A DNA stretch of 39,975 nucleotides from Candidatus Zixiibacteriota bacterium (lineage in GTDB: Bacteria > Zixibacteria > MSB-5A5 > GN15 > PGXB01): assembly GCA_900498245.1 (NCBI GenBank), contig LS998015.1, forward strand, positions 2,805,506 to 2,845,480. Direction: 5' to 3'. Every line of letters starts with the position of its first letter. Position 1 is the stretch's first letter. The notes under the pieces are model-generated. The model did not search any database. It was not told the DNA's origin and worked only from the letters and a program-made list of their open reading frames with translations. The position numbers and the translations under genes were made by a program. Shown piece by piece: positions 643-9,239 of this stretch.

Positions 643-1875
643 TTAATTTCCGGCCCTAAACAGTTCAAGAAACCAGGACCAGTGGAATTGCGCCGCGATT
701 ATTCCCAAAATGGAAATAATTATTATAGCCGCTTTGCCATAGTCCTGAGCCTTTAATGATCCCAGTAGAATTGGCTCTCTGCTGAGATACGCCGAGGCGG
801 CGTATAATTCCTCGCCGATAAGAGTATAATCGCAGGCCACGACGAAGAAGGGAATCTGCGCCACCTGATCGGTGCCGGAAATCTGCACCGATCCGGCGAG
901 GGCACCGGTTTCGGCCAAGAGCAGCGATTCGGCGTAGAAAGTGCCCATGTAGATATTGGTCGCAGGCAATTGACGAAGCATGGTTCCATTGACCGCCGCC
1001 ACGTAGGCGAACTGGTTGGATGTTACGTAATAGACCATGTCGTCGTTGTAGGCGTCGGGACGCCCGGCATCGAGATAGGCAGTGCGGACCGTCTCCTGCG
1101 CGACCGTCATGACAATGGCGTCATAGCAGGGGACAATCAAGCCGGTCTGATACTCGGCGACCTTCTTGGCGACCCGTCCGAGAATGGTGAAGGAGGCGAT
1201 GGTAGCGATATCGGCGGCCGTTCCCAAACCAAGGACATAGAGAATCGGCTTGCCCATTTCGGTGGCGCGCCCGATAGCCTCATCGACCGCTTCGATTCCG
1301 GCCAGACGGCGCACGAAGAGATTCGCCCCGCCACGGGCTTTTCTGATGAAGAAAAATGTAATGATCGCGAAGCAGAGAACAAAGACCAGCACCAGAGTCC
1401 GGCCGACATTGTACAATTGCCCCTTGGCCTGAACCGGCCCAATAACAGGGGAATCGGCATAGACATTGCTGTCGGCGGTAATCGTGCGAATGATGTAATA
1501 ATAATTCGTATCATTAGGCATAAATTTCGGTTCTTCCGGCTTTCGTCCGCCATTGTCGATATATTCACTGCTTCCGGAAGGGGCCAAAGCGTCCTTGAGA
1601 AGAACAAAGCCACTGTCGGGGAAAAATGAGCGGAGGAATTTGTACCCGAGAACCGACTTTTGCCCGGCGCCATCGTCCGCTGACGGGGTCCAGCGAAGGG
1701 TAATGGAATGACCATTATCATTCGGGGAATCCTTGGCGGTGGCATCGGTCACCGGAGCCGGGGGTGAAATGGAAGGGGCAATGGTTGCCTCTGTGGTTCC
1801 GGTACTATCCTGCGCGACGGCGGGAAGGGCCAGGGCCAGCAAGAGACAGCCGAGAATCATTATTTTAAATTTCAT
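643..1875 (-). CDS. Module A gene 1: signal peptide, fibronectin III-like and DUF6754-type membrane protein
   Basis: The protein has 410 aa from the ATG at 1873-1875, chosen because GAGG sits six bases upstream; a GTG two codons earlier is possible. MKFKIMILG followed by a hydrophobic run and PAVAQ is a signal peptide. A fibronectin III-like domain follows at roughly 40-150, then a membrane segment. A cytoplasmic domain of about 200 aa, which I believe is Pfam DUF6754, comes next, then a C-terminal membrane segment. It shares with the two paralogues the blocks AIGRATEMG, AGRPDAY, PFFVACDYTLIGEEL (in variant form), AASAYLSREP and GSLK.QD. Copy A is the most divergent of the three, for example LGTAADIATIASF where B and C have DMD(D/N)VQTIAGIT. 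No enzymatic function can be assigned. It heads the third copy of the module. Confidence 0.88.
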   Translation of the reverse strand: MKFKIMILGCLLLALALPAVAQDSTGTTEATIAPSISPPAPVTDATAKDSPNDNGHSITLRWTPSADDGAGQKSVLGYKFLRSFFPDSGFVLLKDALAPSGSSEYIDNGGRKPEEPKFMPNDTNYYYIIRTITADSNVYADSPVIGPVQAKGQLYNVGRTLVLVFVLCFAIITFFFIRKARGGANLFVRRLAGIEAVDEAIGRATEMGKPILYVLGLGTAADIATIASFTILGRVAKKVAEYQTGLIVPCYDAIVMTVAQETVRTAYLDAGRPDAYNDDMVYYVTSNQFAYVAAVNGTMLRQLPATNIYMGTFYAESLLLAETGALAGSVQISGTDQVAQIPFFVVACDYTLIGEELYAASAYLSREPILLGSLKAQDYGKAAIIIISILGIIAAQFHWSWFLELFRAGN

Positions 1876-1904
1876 ACACACCTCGCAAAGTTGTATATGT
1901 GCAC

Positions 1905-2708
1905 TTATTTGACGAGTCCCAGCCAGTCATGGAAAAGGAAGGTCAGCCTCCCCACCAATAATGAAACGCGCCCCATGACGGTGTATCCGAAGGAGGCGCC
2001 GAAAGTTATCATCAAGACCCAAATTCCCGCCCGGGAGGCAAAACCGAAGGCTCCTTTATGCTCTTTGGAGAAAAAGAAATAAATCAGGCCGCAAAAAACA
2101 CCGATAAAAATAATCCAATTGGAAAGACTCATGGCAAATTGCCCCGAGGCCGAGAGCGACAGATGGGAGAAGAATGGCCCGACGCCTTTCCAGTCGGTCA
2201 CGAGCGGTATGAAAGTATTGCTGACCTGACTAATGAAATCAGAGCGCAGGTAGCGGATAAGATTCAAACCGGCCGTGGTGCCGACAATGAAGGCCAGCGA
2301 CCAGCGCGACAGCCAGCCGGCATTTGCGGACAAACGCATGAGGAGGAAGACGCCGAGAATGAGGGGGACAAAGAAGAAGATGTCGAATCCTTTGTAGGGA
2401 ACACCAAAATAATTGCAGAGAGTCGGGGAAATACGGGGAAGCAGATTCCCCACGAAAGTTGACCAGAATCCGACCGACATCCAGTAGGCGGCAGAAACCC
2501 CCACAAAAAGGTGTTCGGCGAATTTATAGTAAGGGTTGTCTTTATATAAAAAAGAGAGGATCGACAAGGTGAGAAAAGCGGCCAGAGTAGCCAAGAAGGC
2601 CTGGGTTATAGAATTATCGGCATGCGATCCCTTAATTATCCAACTGATACCGAAAATTAATATTACCGCTATGAAAACTATCCAGGATAAAATTCGGGAA
2701 TTTTTCAT
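1905..2708 (-). CDS. Module B gene 4: polytopic membrane protein
   Basis: The protein has 267 aa and six or seven hydrophobic segments. Its ATG overlaps the stop of gene 3 by four bases (ATGA), and GAGAGGG lies just upstream, so the two are translationally coupled. Compared with the module C paralogue (215 aa) it carries an extra N-terminal membrane helix of about 40 residues. The shared core is strong: FLYKDN..YK near the start, SRWSLAFIVG in the middle, and a C-terminal stretch with FFFSKEHKG, GIW, MITFGASFGYTVM and SLL.GR. The conserved C-terminal third is more constrained than the rest and probably carries the working surface. No known family is recognised. Confidence 0.87.
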   Translation of the reverse strand: MKNSRILSWIVFIAVILIFGISWIIKGSHADNSITQAFLATLAAFLTLSILSFLYKDNPYYKFAEHLFVGVSAAYWMSVGFWSTFVGNLLPRISPTLCNYFGVPYKGFDIFFFVPLILGVFLLMRLSANAGWLSRWSLAFIVGTTAGLNLIRYLRSDFISQVSNTFIPLVTDWKGVGPFFSHLSLSASGQFAMSLSNWIIFIGVFCGLIYFFFSKEHKGAFGFASRAGIWVLMITFGASFGYTVMGRVSLLVGRLTFLFHDWLGLVK

Positions 2709-3622
2709 TTGCCCTCTCCCTTTGATTTCAGGACAAAGAACGAAATATTCCCGAAAATAATGAAGGCCATGATGACCAGATGGGCCATGGTCTGAGGACC
2801 CATCATCTTGATTCCCGGTTGCGGGGTCTCGGCAAAACGAGGATATTTTCTTTTTAATTCCGATTCATACTCGGCGGCCCCTTTAATCCCGCCCAGAAGT
2901 CCGATCAACTGATTGGGATAATACGGATAGAGTAGCGGCGCCGAAACGGCGGCGCATCCGCCGACGACCGGAATATGGCCCGGATCGCCTGCGAACAACA
3001 CCCACTCTTTCACCCCGGGTAATCCGCCCCCGACCGATATAAGCAGGTCCATATCCCGCAGAGAACGGATACCGTTCATTATAGGCAAAGAGTCGAGATT
3101 GGCGCCATTGACATCGGTGAGGTACATTTTTCGGATATCCGTAATAATGACATTGAGGACGCCGGTGCCGCCGGCTTTGTATCCTAAATTGACGTAATCA
3201 ACGCCATATTTTTTCTCCGGGAATTCCTTTTTAATGATCTGATCAATGGCGGTGGCCACCATCGGCTGGCCGGTTGCCCAGAGATTCATAAAATAGATGC
3301 GATGCCCCTTGGCCATAGCATGACGGACAAAGGCATCGGTCATGGGATTGACCTCGGGCGCCATCGCCGGATCATAATCATAGGAGATTAATATTTTTGA
3401 ACCGGAAGGAAGATTTTCAATTTTGTCGAAAGCGGCCTTAACGATGGGTGTGGCCTTTTCAGAAAAGGAAATATTGAAAAGTATCGGAACCGCCACGGCA
3501 ACGCCCATAAATAGAAAGATGAAACGACGTTCGACGTCACGTCCCCGAATAGAGAGGATGAACAGATAGAGCAGACCGGCGGCAATCACGGCCAGTGAGA
3601 TAATAAGCCCAATCTTATTCAT
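2705..3622 (-). CDS. Module B gene 3: soluble alpha/beta-looking domain between membrane segments
   Basis: The protein has 305 aa. Two N-terminal hydrophobic segments (about 4-23 and 32-51) are followed by a soluble domain of about 200 residues and a C-terminal membrane helix near 275-300. Shared with the 331-aa module C paralogue are GSK(I/V)L(I/V)S.DYDPA.APE, the pattern D.L(P/L) followed by GG or AG.PG..EWV, and LGGI.GAAEYE. Alternating hydrophobic strands such as KILISYDYDP and HRIYFMNLW suggest a Rossmann-like or periplasmic-binding-like fold, but I cannot name a family. It overlaps gene 2 by eight bases and gene 4 by four, which indicates tight coupling. Function unknown. Confidence 0.87.
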   Translation of the reverse strand: MNKIGLIISLAVIAAGLLYLFILSIRGRDVERRFIFLFMGVAVAVPILFNISFSEKATPIVKAAFDKIENLPSGSKILISYDYDPAMAPEVNPMTDAFVRHAMAKGHRIYFMNLWATGQPMVATAIDQIIKKEFPEKKYGVDYVNLGYKAGGTGVLNVIITDIRKMYLTDVNGANLDSLPIMNGIRSLRDMDLLISVGGGLPGVKEWVLFAGDPGHIPVVGGCAAVSAPLLYPYYPNQLIGLLGGIKGAAEYESELKRKYPRFAETPQPGIKMMGPQTMAHLVIMAFIIFGNISFFVLKSKGEGK

Positions 3623-4292
3623 TATCCGCCCCCAGATAGGTCCGCTCGACGCCGAGAATCAAGCGGAGCGACATTGATATAACACCCAAGGCAATGCCAA
3701 TCATGATGGCACGCTGGCCGGCCAGGTTTGGCGATGACATAATCCAGATGGCCAAATTGGGAATCTGCAGCAGCGAAAACGATTCCGGAATCCATCCGGT
3801 GGCATAAACGCCCAGGGGGGTTCTTCCGAGAAGAATGATAAAGGCCGCTATCAAGAGGATGGTCGCCTCTTTGTTTTTGGCCCGAAAAGCGCGGTATGAG
3901 GCGGAAGCGACATAAAATGCCAACAGGGCGTACATGGTCGAGCCGAGAGGATAAAAGATATTGAAATAAAGGGTCTGAAATAATGATCCTGTCGCGGCCA
4001 CATCACCGGTAATGCCGTTGGGATTGGCAATTTTAAACAATCCGGCCGCCAGCATGACCAAAAAACCGGTGAGGGTGACAATTGAAAAAGGCCAGTCTTT
4101 CCCACGGCGATATATTTTATTACCATGGATTCGGATGAGGTTGCCCCCGCCCAAGAAGAAAGCAAAAACGGCGATTATATCGAAAAAGACGGAGAAATTT
4201 TCGCCCAGCCGTTCGGCGGGCGGAAAGAAGACCGATATAATCAGTACCGCTCCGACGACGAAAGTAATAATTATGGGGACCTGACGTTTCAC
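3615..4292 (-). CDS. Module B gene 2: polytopic membrane protein
   Basis: The protein has 225 aa and starts at a GTG (4290-4292) preceded by AGAAGGA; the start is supported because the paralogues begin with the same residues, M(K/R)R..P. About six membrane helices are seen. Conserved blocks shared with copies A and C are ALLAFYVASASYRAFRA, a GR.P.G stretch in the middle, QRAIMIGIALG and LRLILGVERTYLG at the end. Basic residues follow the ASASYRAFRA helix, so that end is probably cytoplasmic. No catalytic motif is evident. It sits between the DUF6754 gene and gene 3, as in the other copies. Confidence 0.87.
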   Translation of the reverse strand: MKRQVPIIITFVVGAVLIISVFFPPAERLGENFSVFFDIIAVFAFFLGGGNLIRIHGNKIYRRGKDWPFSIVTLTGFLVMLAAGLFKIANPNGITGDVAATGSLFQTLYFNIFYPLGSTMYALLAFYVASASYRAFRAKNKEATILLIAAFIILLGRTPLGVYATGWIPESFSLLQIPNLAIWIMSSPNLAGQRAIMIGIALGVISMSLRLILGVERTYLGADNE

Positions 4293-4308
4293 TGAATTTT
4301 AGTCCTTC

Positions 4309-5505
4309 TCAATTTTGCACCGTAAAGAGCCGTGTCAAAAAGCCAAATAATTCGGTAAATATCCCGGCTCCGCCGACTTGCGAGACGGTCGCCGCCAATA
4401 CGCCCAGGATAATGACAATCATAGCCAGAAGTTTGCCCATATCCTGACCTTTAAGCGAACCCAGTTGTTTCGGTTCGTTGGATAGATAGGCCGAGGCGGC
4501 AAAGAGTTCTTCACCTATCAGCGTATAGTCGCAAGCGGCCACGAAGAACGGCAATTGCGCCGGCTGAGCGGTTCCCGCGATCTGGATGGCGCCGATGGAA
4601 TTTCCGGTTTCGGCAAGAATTAACGATTCGGCGAAAAAGGCCCCCAGATAGAAACAAGTCGCCGGCTTCTGACGAACCATGATGCCGTCGACAGCCGCCA
4701 CATAACCGAATTGCTCATCGGTAATGTAGTTAACCATGTCATCGCTGTAAGCATCGGGCCGACCGGCGCCCATATATGCCTCGCGAATGGTTTCTCGGGC
4801 GGTGGTCATCACAATCGAGCGGGACACCGGCATATTGATTTTTATATCATAATCCGCCACCACTTTGGCGACCCGTCCCAAAAGAGTAATTCCGGCAATC
4901 GTCTGCACATCATCCATATCGTTGATGCCGGGAATGAATAGAATGGGACGACCCATTTCGGTGGCGCGACCGATGGCTTCATCGATGGCTTCGAGTCCGG
5001 CAATTTTGCGGACAAACAATTTCTTGCCGCGTGTAGCATGGGAGATGAAAAATATGACTGACCCGCACAGGAAAAGACCGATGACAAACAGGTTCAAGAG
5101 GTTCCAGTTGACAATCTCCATGTGCGGAACGACCGGCGGCGACACCTCAGAAAAATAAAGGTGGCCGCCCGCGGAAGCCGCCACCTGATAGCGATATTCT
5201 TTACCCTTTTCAACCGATTTGTCGCGGTAGGATGAAATTCCCGCTCCGACAAATGCAATCGAGGAAAAACTATCTGAGGGCATTTCGGCGCGATATATTT
5301 CGTAACCACTCACCCGCCCATCTTTATCATCGGCCGACAGGCGCCAATTGATGTCGACCGCTTCCCCACGATCATATTTATAGTCAGCAGCAACTAAATC
5401 CGTGGGGGGTGATAGAGTCTCCTGTCCGAAAAGGCAAACGGGAAGCAGCCAAATTGCCAAAAGGCAGAGCCCGAGACAGTATGATGATCGCTTGGCCTGG
5501 TGCAT
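4309..5505 (-). CDS. Module B gene 1: signal peptide, fibronectin III-like and DUF6754-type membrane protein
   Basis: The protein has 398 aa when started at the ATG at 5503-5505, two bases after the stop of the preceding gene; an upstream extension would overlap that gene and lacks signal-peptide features. MHQAKRSSYCLGLCLLAIWL to CLFGQ is a signal peptide. The fibronectin III-like domain (about 35-125) has the expected INWRLSADD, GYEIYRA and YRYQVAAS strands. After a membrane helix comes the DUF6754-type domain with AGLEAIDEAIGRATEMG, AGRPDAYSDDMV, FFAESLILAETG, PFFVAACDYTLIGEEL, AASAYLSNEP and LGSLKGQDMGK, then a C-terminal helix and a short tail. Its core is closer to copy C than to copy A. 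Confidence 0.88.
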   Translation of the reverse strand: MHQAKRSSYCLGLCLLAIWLLPVCLFGQETLSPPTDLVAADYKYDRGEAVDINWRLSADDKDGRVSGYEIYRAEMPSDSFSSIAFVGAGISSYRDKSVEKGKEYRYQVAASAGGHLYFSEVSPPVVPHMEIVNWNLLNLFVIGLFLCGSVIFFISHATRGKKLFVRKIAGLEAIDEAIGRATEMGRPILFIPGINDMDDVQTIAGITLLGRVAKVVADYDIKINMPVSRSIVMTTARETIREAYMGAGRPDAYSDDMVNYITDEQFGYVAAVDGIMVRQKPATCFYLGAFFAESLILAETGNSIGAIQIAGTAQPAQLPFFVAACDYTLIGEELFAASAYLSNEPKQLGSLKGQDMGKLLAMIVIILGVLAATVSQVGGAGIFTELFGFLTRLFTVQN

Positions 5506-5507
5506 CC

Positions 5508-6155
5508 TTACCTGATGAGTCTCAACCAGTCCCCGAAAATGAATTCCATTCGTCCTATCAAAAGCGACATACGGCTCATGACGGTATATCCGAACGAAGC
5601 ACCGAAAGTAATCATAATGGTCCAAATTCCGATTCGGGCCGCCCCTCCAAAGACTCCCTTATGTTCTTTGCTGAAAAAGAAATAAACCAGCCCGGTGAAG
5701 GTTCCGCCAGCGACGACCAGATTTCCCACAGTGTCATACAACGTGGCCGAAAATATCGGCTGGCCGTAATGGGGACTGAAAAGGGGAGCCAGAGTGCTCT
5801 GAACCTGAAGCATTACGTTGGAGGAAAAATAATTTATGATATAGAGCCCGGCAGTGGCGCCGACCACAAAAGCCAGCGGCCAGCGGGAAATCCAGCCGAT
5901 CGGGGGGACCAGACGGAGAAGCATCATGAATCCCAAGACACCGCCAATCAGGAGGGTATAATGGGGATCCGGGCCGGTTATGCCGTTCCAAAAGAGATTC
6001 TGAATATTATCAAAAAAGAGCGTCACGAACCAATAGCCGGCCGATATGCCGACAAAAATCGATTCACAAATTTTGTACCAGGCATTATCCTTGTACAGGA
6101 ATGAGATGATGCCCAAAGTGAGAAAGGCGGCAACCCAAATTCCAAAGGTCTCCAT
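5508..6155 (-). CDS. Module C gene 4: polytopic membrane protein
   Basis: The protein has 215 aa. I chose the ATG at 6153-6155, one base after the stop of gene 3, because METFGIWVAAFLTLGIISFL then aligns with the internal region of the module B paralogue; the longer reading to 6209 would overlap gene 3 by about 50 bases. Around six membrane helices are visible. The C-terminal part (FFFSKEHKGVFG, GIWTIMITFGASFGYTVM, SLLIGR, DWLRLIR) is nearly identical to copy B. The N-terminal extra helix of copy B is missing here. Function unknown. Confidence 0.86.
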   Translation of the reverse strand: METFGIWVAAFLTLGIISFLYKDNAWYKICESIFVGISAGYWFVTLFFDNIQNLFWNGITGPDPHYTLLIGGVLGFMMLLRLVPPIGWISRWPLAFVVGATAGLYIINYFSSNVMLQVQSTLAPLFSPHYGQPIFSATLYDTVGNLVVAGGTFTGLVYFFFSKEHKGVFGGAARIGIWTIMITFGASFGYTVMSRMSLLIGRMEFIFGDWLRLIR

Positions 6156-6156
6156 A

Positions 6157-7152
6157 CTATTTCTGCTCCTTTCCCGCTCTTTTCTTTTCCCCGAGGAAAT
6201 AAGCGGCATTGCCTATCAGAATGAAGGCGATGACTATCACATGCGAAAAAGATTGCGGCAACATATAAAAAGTGGCCGTTCCTTCTTTGCCGGTGGCCCG
6301 TTCAAATTCGGCGGCACCGCTCAATCCGCCCAGAAGACCTTTCAATTGGCCGGAGCGAAGGTAAGGATACATACCGGTCGCCTGAACCCCCGTATTGCCA
6401 GCACCTAATTTTAGTCCATAGCGATCCACCGCCACCTGCACCCATTCAACTGTCCCGGGGTATCCGGCCGAAAGGTTGAAGGAATAGTCGATATTGGAAA
6501 AGTTGCGAACGTCACGGAGGAGCGGGATCGAATCATAAGGAATGCCGCGAGTATCGCGGGGAAACATCATGCGGAAATCGGTTCCCATGCGCTGGATGAC
6601 AAATTCATTGCCGGTCTGAAAGCCAAGATCCACGTAATCTATTCCCCGCTGCAGATTCTTTTTGGCAATATCGGGGTCCCGGAGGACAACATCGAGCGCC
6701 AATTCCGCCTGTTGCGGTCCCTGGGGCCAAAGGCCCATGATTATTATTTTAAGATCGTGCTGCAGGCAGAGACGGAAATAGGATTCCGCCATCGGCTGCA
6801 GTTCCGGAGCTGAAGCGGGGTCATAATCAAAAGAAACCAGGACTTTGGAGCCGGGTTTCAACTCGGCCGTAGAATCATAAACGGTTCGAACTTCAGGAGA
6901 AACGTGAATCGGCTGATTAATTTGCATAAAGAACGGCAAGACCACCGCAATTCCGACAAAGAGGAAGACTATTCGTCGCCCCACAAAGTGGCCATTAATG
7001 GTACGTATGAGAATATAGACCAGCGCCAGCAGAATCAGGCCGATGATGATATAAGACACGGTTGGCGAAAAGGCCAACGGTTTGGGAACCACGAGAAATA
7101 TCAGGGCCACGATTACCACAAGGGCGCCAAAGACAATAAGATCCTGTTTCAT
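6157..7152 (-). CDS. Module C gene 3: soluble domain between membrane segments
   Basis: The protein has 331 aa. Three N-terminal hydrophobic segments (about 5-23, 28-49 and 58-77) precede a soluble domain with GSKVLVSFDYDPASAPEL, GIDYVDLGFQTG, SAGYPGTVEWV and LLGGLSGAAEFE, then a C-terminal helix with HVIVIAFILIG. Homology to the 305-aa protein of module B is clear over the soluble domain and the last helix; copy C has one additional N-terminal helix. The start ATG lies two bases after the stop of gene 2, with GGGGGGTGA as a likely ribosome site. No family is recognised. Confidence 0.87.
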   Translation of the reverse strand: MKQDLIVFGALVVIVALIFLVVPKPLAFSPTVSYIIIGLILLALVYILIRTINGHFVGRRIVFLFVGIAVVLPFFMQINQPIHVSPEVRTVYDSTAELKPGSKVLVSFDYDPASAPELQPMAESYFRLCLQHDLKIIIMGLWPQGPQQAELALDVVLRDPDIAKKNLQRGIDYVDLGFQTGNEFVIQRMGTDFRMMFPRDTRGIPYDSIPLLRDVRNFSNIDYSFNLSAGYPGTVEWVQVAVDRYGLKLGAGNTGVQATGMYPYLRSGQLKGLLGGLSGAAEFERATGKEGTATFYMLPQSFSHVIVIAFILIGNAAYFLGEKKRAGKEQK

Positions 7153-7154
7153 GA

Positions 7155-7808
7155 TCAGTCACCCCCCAGATAAGAGCGTTCGATACCGAGGATAATTCTC
7201 AGGGAGGTGGAAACAATCCCCAGAGCAATGCCGATCATGATGGCCCGCTGTCCGGCGGAATTTATAAATCCCATTATCCATATGGTGATTTTTGAGGGCA
7301 TCAGCGATTCGGGAATATGTATCAGGGTTCCGATAGCATCGCCGACCGGAACACGCCCGATCATTACAAAGAAGGCGGCCAGCAGCAGCAGGGTGGCTTC
7401 GAGGTTTCTGGCCCGGAAAGCACGGTACGATGCCGAGGCGACAAAAAAGGCCAGAAGAGCAAACATGGTGGCCGAAAGAGGGGAATAGACCCAGGTATAT
7501 AACCAATCAAAACCGGTTCCCTGATCACGGAAGTGAGTCCCGCTGGCAAAACCGATAATGGCAATAAGTAGAAAGGATGCAATAATGACGGCGGCATATC
7601 CCCAGCCGGACCGGCGGCGATAGACTTTATCGGCCGAGATGCGCATCAGGTTCAGAGCCCCCAGCCAGATGGCACAGGCCCCGATTATGGCGAACCAATC
7701 CGAAAACCACGAGTTGAAACGATTGAACGGTTCATGGGGAATGAAATACTGAATGACAAAAATCACTCCCACCACGGCCGTTATAATAAGTGGAACTTCA
7801 CGTCTCAT
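7155..7808 (-). CDS. Module C gene 2: polytopic membrane protein
   Basis: The protein has 217 aa and six hydrophobic segments. It starts MRREVPLIITAVVG and has a strong GGGAGGAG ribosome site seven bases before the ATG. It shares with copies A and B the blocks MFALLAFFVASASYRAFRAR, LLAAFFVMIGRVPVG, QRAIMIGIALG and LRIILGIERSYLGG. It follows the DUF6754 gene after 12 bases. It is predicted to be an inner-membrane component of the repeated module, with no known function. Confidence 0.88.
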   Translation of the reverse strand: MRREVPLIITAVVGVIFVIQYFIPHEPFNRFNSWFSDWFAIIGACAIWLGALNLMRISADKVYRRRSGWGYAAVIIASFLLIAIIGFASGTHFRDQGTGFDWLYTWVYSPLSATMFALLAFFVASASYRAFRARNLEATLLLLAAFFVMIGRVPVGDAIGTLIHIPESLMPSKITIWIMGFINSAGQRAIMIGIALGIVSTSLRIILGIERSYLGGD

Positions 7809-7820
7809 ATATTCTCCTCC

Positions 7821-9050
7821 CTACCCGATCACCTTGAAAAAGTTGGAAAGCTGGAAGAGGTTGAAGGATTCCAGCAAGACGCCCACCAGGATGGCCGCCA
7901 GTATAATGGCCTTGCCGATATCCTGCCCCTTGAGGGAACCGAGTAATTTCGGCTCACGGGAAAGATAGGCCGAGGCGGCAAAAAGTTCTTCCCCTATCAG
8001 AGTGTAGTCGCAGGCGGCGACAAAGAACGGCAACTGGGAGGGTTGCCCCGTCCCGGCAATTTGAATGGCCCCGATGGAATTTCCGGTTTCGGAAAGAATC
8101 AATGATTCGGCGTAAAAATTGCCCATAAAAAATATCGTGGCCGGCTTTTCGCGCACCACCATTCCATCGATACCGGCCGCATATCCAAACTGATCGTCGG
8201 TAAGATAGTGCACCTGTTCATCCCGGAAAGTATCAGGGCGCCCGGCCTTGGTATAGGCTTCTTTGACAATTTCCTTGGCCGTAACCATGACCAGAGACCG
8301 GCTCACGGGGACCTCAATCCAGGTTTCGTACTCGGCCGCCAATTGCGCCACGCGGCCCAGAATGGTAATGCCAGCAATGGTCTGGACATTATCCATATCG
8401 GAGGTGCCGGGGATATAAAATATTTTCTTACCCATCTCGGTGGCCCGCCCGACCGCCTCGTCGACCGCATCAAGTCCCGCAATTTTTCTGATAAATAATT
8501 TTTTTCCGGATTTGGCCTGGTTGATATAATAAATAATCAAGCCGCAGAGAATAATCATTCCGATAAAGACATTAAGGCGGCGGAAATCGAACCACTGCGG
8601 TTTGGCTTCCACCGGTCCGGCCACATTGGATTCGCTGGAGACCTGCCAGAGCAATTGGCTGTCCTGACGGGCTGAATTCACGGCCAGGACCTTATAATAG
8701 TAAGGAATATTATCGGCGGCATCGTTATCAATATATTGAACTGAGCCGGCCGGAACCTCACCCACCTCCGCAAATCCGCCTTCGCGATTCTGCGAACGGA
8801 GAATTTTATAGGCCGTGACCTTGCCGCCGGGGTGATCGTCCACCGATAAATCCCAAGTTACCACGACCGCGTGACCGGCATCGTCGGGATTATCCCGAAC
8901 CGCCAGATTTCCGGGCATAACCGGAGTGACATCGGGGGGCGGGGTATTTATTTGCGGGACTTGGGCCGAATCGGTGGAGGTTTGAGCGACGGAAAGGGAA
9001 GCCAGGAGCAGCAGGCCAAGGACTAAGAAAACCGCATACTTTGTTTTCAC
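7821..9050 (-). CDS. Module C gene 1: signal peptide, fibronectin III-like and DUF6754-type membrane protein; first gene of the array
   Basis: The protein has 409 aa from the GTG at 9048-9050. That start gives MKTKYAVFLVLGLLLL to SVAQ, a signal peptide matching copy A, and keeps the start outside the hairpin at 9073-9102; the upstream TTG at 9083 would lie inside the hairpin. Fibronectin III-like domain about 45-140, membrane helix about 159-177, DUF6754-type domain about 185-380, C-terminal helix about 381-399. Key conserved blocks are VGRATEMG (200-207), AGRPDTF (269-275), FYAESLILSETG (312-323), PFFVAACDYTLIGEEL (341-356), AASAYLSREP and LGSLKGQDIGK (370-380). The fibronectin domain should be outside the inner membrane and the DUF6754-type domain inside. 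Confidence 0.88.
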   Translation of the reverse strand: MKTKYAVFLVLGLLLLASLSVAQTSTDSAQVPQINTPPPDVTPVMPGNLAVRDNPDDAGHAVVVTWDLSVDDHPGGKVTAYKILRSQNREGGFAEVGEVPAGSVQYIDNDAADNIPYYYKVLAVNSARQDSQLLWQVSSESNVAGPVEAKPQWFDFRRLNVFIGMIILCGLIIYYINQAKSGKKLFIRKIAGLDAVDEAVGRATEMGKKIFYIPGTSDMDNVQTIAGITILGRVAQLAAEYETWIEVPVSRSLVMVTAKEIVKEAYTKAGRPDTFRDEQVHYLTDDQFGYAAGIDGMVVREKPATIFFMGNFYAESLILSETGNSIGAIQIAGTGQPSQLPFFVAACDYTLIGEELFAASAYLSREPKLLGSLKGQDIGKAIILAAILVGVLLESFNLFQLSNFFKVIG

Positions 9051-9063
9051 GCTTCCCACTTTC

Positions 9064-9102
9064 AAAAAAAATCTCACAGACAATTCGAACGTTATCTGTG
9101 AG
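9064..9102 (-). terminator. Intrinsic terminator hairpin in the leader of the membrane-module array (candidate attenuator)
   Basis: On the minus strand CTCACAGATAA pairs with TTGTCTGTGAG: 11 pairs including one G-T wobble, with an eight-base loop (9084-9091). After one A comes a run of eight T (9071-9064). The first start codon of the array is only 13 bases further on. Because a promoter lies upstream at 9211-9239, this looks like a regulated leader terminator rather than a simple gene-end terminator. Confidence 0.75.
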
Positions 9103-9210
9103 GCTGGTTCAAAAAATCCTAGTTTCGCAATATGCCAATTTCATACCTTCATAGCATTCCCGACGGGGGACGATAATTACGTCCCGCCATCTCATCCAAA
9201 TCGGTTTTGA

Positions 9211-9239
9211 AATTTAACCAGATGTTCTCCGAGTGTCAA
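9211..9239 (-). promoter_or_regulatory. Sigma-70-type promoter for the membrane-module array
   Basis: On the minus strand TTGACA (9239-9234) is followed after exactly 17 bases by TAAATT (9216-9211). The -35 box is perfect and the -10 box matches 4 of 6. Transcription would begin near 9203-9205, giving a leader of about 150 nt that ends in the hairpin at 9073-9102. The leader also contains a GGGACG/CGTCCC hairpin (9167-9185). Confidence 0.6.

Follow-up and report, generated by a model that had tools for sequence, protein, structure and literature searches.

In Escherichia coli the leaders of ampC and pyrBI (pyrL) attenuate transcription without need of an antiterminator: a ribosome that sits near the terminator, or inside it, keeps the hairpin from forming, in response to growth rate at ampC and, by way of U-rich pausing, to UTP at pyrL. 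The trp and his attenuators also set a leader ORF and a terminator before their operon. Defined antiterminators and anti-antiterminators operate in Firmicutes, where vmlR (PMC9226507) and hflXr/rli80 (PMC6310831) answer an antibiotic signal, the small ORF of rli80 specifying 14 amino acids with an RLR motif (PMC6310831). A DUF1127 gene of Sinorhizobium meliloti has a uORF-dependent attenuator that PMC12218461 proposes as a monitor of translation, not of a metabolite; according to the same paper, reporters prove the uORF dependence and C-rich codons at the start of the uORF are the key element.

The leader described here, which precedes a DUF6754 operon of Zixibacteria, shares with those of vmlR and hflXr a promoter, a small ORF (putative here) and an intrinsic terminator close to the gene; it differs in that no conserved alternative pairing was found over 11 DUF6754 leaders and in that the operon does not count among the known resistance genes. 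With the S. meliloti leader it has in common a short ORF between promoter and gene and premature termination, both putative here, whereas the hairpin sequences and the genes are unrelated. The ribosome logic that we propose would resemble that of ampC and pyrBI. Unlike the trp and his leaders, DUF6754 leaders carry neither regulatory codon runs nor a conserved peptide in the families examined, and an amino-acid-sensing leader peptide of that type was rejected on these grounds. If the proposal is right, the DUF6754 leader would work in the manner of uORF-dependent attenuators.

The DUF6754 cassette and its leader

The window, by which we mean the whole stretch of DNA analysed, comprises 39,975 nucleotides of a single-contig, 3.5-Mb genome. 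Its minus strand carries, at 643-9050, a membrane-protein cassette in three tandem copies ordered A-B-C-D, A-B-C-D, A, in which A is DUF6754, B is a multi-helix protein, and each of the four genes shows 35-55% identity between its copies; no Pfam family was found for the B, C and D proteins. The first-gene protein consists, in order, of a signal peptide, an FN3-like beta domain (residues 47-147 or thereabouts), a transmembrane helix (156-180) and an alpha/beta domain; its AlphaFold model has a modest mean pLDDT of 65.7, with low confidence in the DUF6754 part. DUF6754 cassettes occur in 91 of the 97 Zixibacteria genomes searched with a strict cut-off, and no mention of DUF6754 was found in the literature searched. 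The operon is uncharacterised, and a leader recurring before its first gene would imply that the dose of the cassette matters, besides providing a handle on the timing of its use. Two more tandem DUF6754 genes, elsewhere in the genome (G000:C1:1645610-1647281), align with the query from around residue 150 onward only and lack the N-terminal part.

The initial annotation had placed a promoter, two hairpins, a T8 tract and a GTG start 13 bases further on at the head of the array; all of these lie where it put them, on the minus strand (Table 1), and the weak terminator-like hairpin it had remarked before the promoter is present too. From promoter to terminator the leader measures about 140-150 nt. 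The terminator stem contains G+C and is followed by an A and then by T8, as in an intrinsic terminator. A local scan for terminator patterns returned 9 sites where 7.3 were expected, which is unconvincing by itself.

Table 1. Features of the DUF6754 leader and operon (positions in the window)
Feature	Positions	Strand	Basis or remark
Weak hairpin CCGGA...TCCGG-CTTTTT, 5' of the promoter	near 9294-9266
Operon promoter TTGACA-N17-TAAATT	9211..9239	-	Pattern, kept in relatives; TTGACA 9239-9234, 17-nt spacer, TAAATT 9216-9211
Predicted transcribed leader	9064..9204	-	Start placed some 7 nt beyond the -10 box, from promoter position
GGGACG/CGTCCC hairpin, present, not conserved	9167..9185	-	GGGACG 9185-9180, CGTCCC 9172-9167; differs in L010 and other relatives
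Putative mini-ORF ATG...TGA, MKLAYCETRIF then stop, 11 codons	9109..9144	-	ATGA position in f1 leaders; stop ends 6 nt before the stem
Terminator hairpin, 11 pairs	9073..9102	-	Pattern, covariation, covariance model
Terminator U-tract T8	9064..9071	-	T-run in every f1 member with the hairpin; 13 nt to GTG (9050-9048)
First gene, DUF6754, 409 aa, GTG start	7821..9050	-	Pfam PF20539, 1.3e-127
Remainder of array, B1-C1-D1, A2-B2-C2-D2, A3	643..7808	-	Copy-to-copy identity

Conservation and recurrence of the terminator

For comparison we gathered the sequences that precede orthologous first genes within the family (f1), the order and the class. Of the 14 readable f1 leaders, 12 have the succession of promoter, leader and terminator; in the 11 that were aligned, the promoter (consensus G[C/A]CTTGACA...TTARATT), an ATATGAA-like element and the terminator are similarly spaced, and across most of the phylum the promoter recurs as CTTGAC-N-TAGATT. 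Conservation of the hairpin in relatives, a check put forward in the initial annotation, was borne out in f1, where the hairpin is kept with covariation: the stem scores 0.263, as against 0.166 +/- 0.030 after shuffling (1/500) and at most 0.139 in slid controls. The outer part of the stem is alike in sequence across the family (CCTCACAG...CTGTGAGG), and the compensated changes run from A-U to G-C and from C-G to A-U, with several more in the inner part.

An RNA covariance model, R1, was built on the stretch from ATATGAA to the T-run (the last 84 positions). In the window's genome R1 finds exactly one site, the leader with the hairpin of Table 1 (62.4 bits, E 7e-8), and across f1 it gives a single convincing site per genome in 12 of the 15 genomes. 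Among the genomes matched is G009, whose leader (L189) lay outside the training set; there a promoter, ATGAAA and a terminator follow one another correctly, ahead of a gene that starts with GTG. When R1 served as a regulon search of the f1 genomes it gave one site per genome, apart from a weak second match in G014 (E 0.19); no other operon, therefore, clearly has the leader.

Only in the genus of the window does a response-regulator cluster lie 5' of the promoter; the remaining f1 genomes have another small ORF there, on the same strand, or else a divergent gene (L015, L018, L021). Since the upstream neighbour changes or diverges while the terminator stays, the terminator belongs to the DUF6754 operon, and its assignment to the end of the upstream operon was ruled out. 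The wider supposition, that the hairpin closes that operon, or else an independent small RNA, with a separate promoter for the first gene further on, could appeal to the response-regulator cluster lying upstream on the same strand in this genome; the 13 nt between T8 and GTG are too short for a promoter, and with the changing neighbours this leaves the supposition scarcely credible.

Beyond f1, at least seven families (f6, f7, f10, f11, f12, f13 and f17) place a terminator in the stretch from promoter to start, in hairpins whose sequences are unrelated to those of f1; the same holds of L099, L105 and L109, which are related loci. By a simple terminator criterion, 27 of 88 distinct DUF6754 first genes have a terminator just before the start, compared with 6 of 121 other genes taken from the same contigs and preceded by gaps of 150 nt or more (Fisher p 5.5e-7); an earlier count against an opposite-strand control, duplicates included, gave 24 versus 3. 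Families f2, f16 and f18 are without the terminator, and so are the greater part of f4 and, in f1, genus g2, whose leaders L018 and L019 have the promoter. The recurrence of position and function in hairpins of unrelated sequence points to selection for premature termination as such. Conservation, covariation, recurrence and changing upstream genes together make it well supported that the leader is a genuine, recurrent transcription attenuator, one of two readings that the initial annotation had offered.

Two side observations concern the families with losses. In L018 and L019, pairing of GGTGTAAA...TTTACACC could form the base of a large hairpin in the leader, one that no T-run follows. In L024 (G045, f4) a GCCGAA...TTCGGC-T7 hairpin, apparently a leader terminator, ends directly at the ATG.

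Riboswitch and antiterminator readings

The same annotation had offered a new riboswitch as the alternative to an attenuator and had thought a c-di-GMP sensor tempting. Neither idea fared well. Rfam gave no match to the leader at gathering score, nor any at E up to 5, GEMM included, and none to the leaders of eleven relatives; no conserved aptamer or antiterminator was found. Folding of the region 5' of the terminator is no different from that of shuffles (mean z -0.57, 11 leaders), and the best pairing to the 5' arm of the terminator, by duplex energy, is likewise random-like (mean z +0.41 against shuffles, 11 leaders). A GGTGAG/CTCACC pairing in L021, considered as an antiterminator, failed to generalise to other leaders. 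The GGGACG/CGTCCC hairpin, though really there, is not a conserved element: in L010, the nearest relative, a different hairpin replaces it.

A small-molecule riboswitch, for c-di-GMP or of a new class, with the terminator as its expression platform, would fit the order promoter-leader-terminator, and the 155-nt leader does fold somewhat better than its shuffles (z -2.13), mainly owing to the terminator. With Rfam blank for leader and relatives, upstream folding and alternative pairing at random levels, and sequence and first hairpin unconserved even between L009 and L010, we consider it very improbable; a metabolite aptamer changing so fast would be very unusual. No paper on Zixibacteria and riboswitches together was found in the literature searched.

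That neither a conserved sensor nor a conserved antiterminator was found suits another arrangement, in which the hairpin is a constitutive partial terminator allowing a fixed, low read-through, with no sensing, and the ATG and short frames are incidental. The loss of the terminator with retention of the promoter in L018, L019 and most of f4 fits it too, as does the lack of conservation of the mini-ORF peptides. We take it as a serious rival, unlikely on the whole in view of the ORF geometry described next.

A putative short leader ORF and the proposed switch

The best clue to mechanism, unmentioned in the initial annotation, is the mini-ORF. ATGA stands 33-45 nt before the stem in 11 of 11 f1 leaders, where 1.9 would be expected, and again in L189 (12 of 12); TATGA stands 37-46 nt before it in 9 of 11 (0.4 expected). 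The first stop read from this ATG falls at most 8 nt before the stem in 5 of 12 leaders as against 1.25 expected (p 0.008), and earlier still in only 2 as against 6.5 (p 0.005); these, like all our ORF tests except those on L178 and L189, were designed after the pattern had been seen. The ORF has 11 codons in L009, L010 and L189, and elsewhere in f1 its length varies, from 5 to 26 codons overall. Its peptides are not conserved: codon changes counted by hand number 5 nonsynonymous and 1 synonymous between L009 and L010, and all those between L013 and L014 are nonsynonymous. Shine-Dalgarno sites in f1 are weak (L009, p 0.38), enrichment of such a site plus a start, combined over families, is not significant (p 0.18), and stops in frame 0 (3/112, discounting the TGA inside ATGA) are not clearly depleted relative to the other frames (4/111 and 7/114). 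For f1, then, the indications that the mini-ORF is coding are only suggestive.

The invariant ATGA is something for which a terminator of fixed read-through would need another reason. It could be accounted for by a protein or transcription factor controlling read-through, whether an RNA-binding protein or pausing of the NusA/NusG type at the ATATGAA element, with TATGA as the binding or pause site and perhaps the TTGAAC-like stretch that lies 5' of the stem in several f1 members. The element is not seen in other families, whose leaders are unrelated, and no regulator gene accompanies the operon in the loci examined; we judge control of this kind distinctly unlikely.

Family f10 provides the sharpest case. 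Three of its leaders, with only 20% of columns in common, each have a GTG start and 13 codons in the same frame, closed by a TGA that leaves 16 nt to the stem; column shuffles produced any shared ORF in 0.0005 of trials. A fourth f10 genome (L178), sought afterwards as a test of the 13 codons, has the terminator and an ORF of exactly that length, MLIAVIVDCLVIF followed by a stop 15-16 nt before the stem; its start is ATG, not GTG as expected, and the expectation was put on record together with the result. All four leaders thus have exactly 13 codons, with unrelated peptides. We regard the f10 leaders as strong evidence for a predicted leader ORF, and this fixed geometry, confirmed out of sample, is the second feature for which a constitutive terminator would need another reason. 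The four also make a clean test case for attenuation by ORF geometry, and not by peptide or codon identity.

Both members of a pair of f13 leaders show AGGAG and then a frame of 11 codons opened by TTG (MIFIVKNIWKT and MFFAVKKISKT), with the stop 13-14 nt before the stem, which is suggestive of a leader ORF in that family as well. L099, L105 and L109 share a 7-codon frame, M[KR]I[RK]IFK, ending 13 nt before the stem; in these close relatives the shared frame alone is not significant (0.37, column shuffles).

We propose, as a prediction from these comparisons, a cis-acting attenuator of the DUF6754 operon whose most likely switch, at about an even chance, is a ribosome on the short leader ORF. 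Transcription would start at the conserved promoter and run for some 140 nt, and much of it would stop by default at the intrinsic terminator before the first gene, the operon being made only when RNA polymerase reads through. Between promoter and terminator would lie a short leader ORF of variable sequence, which in f1 would begin at the invariant ATG(A), some 40 nt from the stem, and in most cases be open to the stem or into it. With the stop only 6 nt from the stem, a ribosome finishing there would mask the beginning of the 5' arm and favour read-through, so that the operon would report translation of its leader. The conserved layout is observed; actual termination (at 9064-9070) and its regulation are what we infer from it.

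Stops in f10 and f13, at 13-16 nt from the stem, would be beyond direct cover by the ribosome, and the geometry or even the sign of the response may differ by family. Tentatively, we extend the proposal to the phylum: the length and position of the ORF, not its peptide, might gate the DUF6754 operon throughout, having been rebuilt repeatedly with unrelated hairpins. If this were true, an uncharacterised membrane cassette would be tied to translation status across Zixibacteria.

Two further families offer minor observations on leader ORFs. In L170 and L171 (f7) the GGGGAGG of the leader ORF is complementary to a CCCCAC further downstream that both leaders have, and may be a sequestered ribosome-binding site. 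L159, L160 and L163 (f11) have GGAGG, then 6 nt, then a CTG from which a frame of similar residues stays open (two of the three read LKK..RR.FEIE.RATHFS), a possible CTG-started leader ORF.
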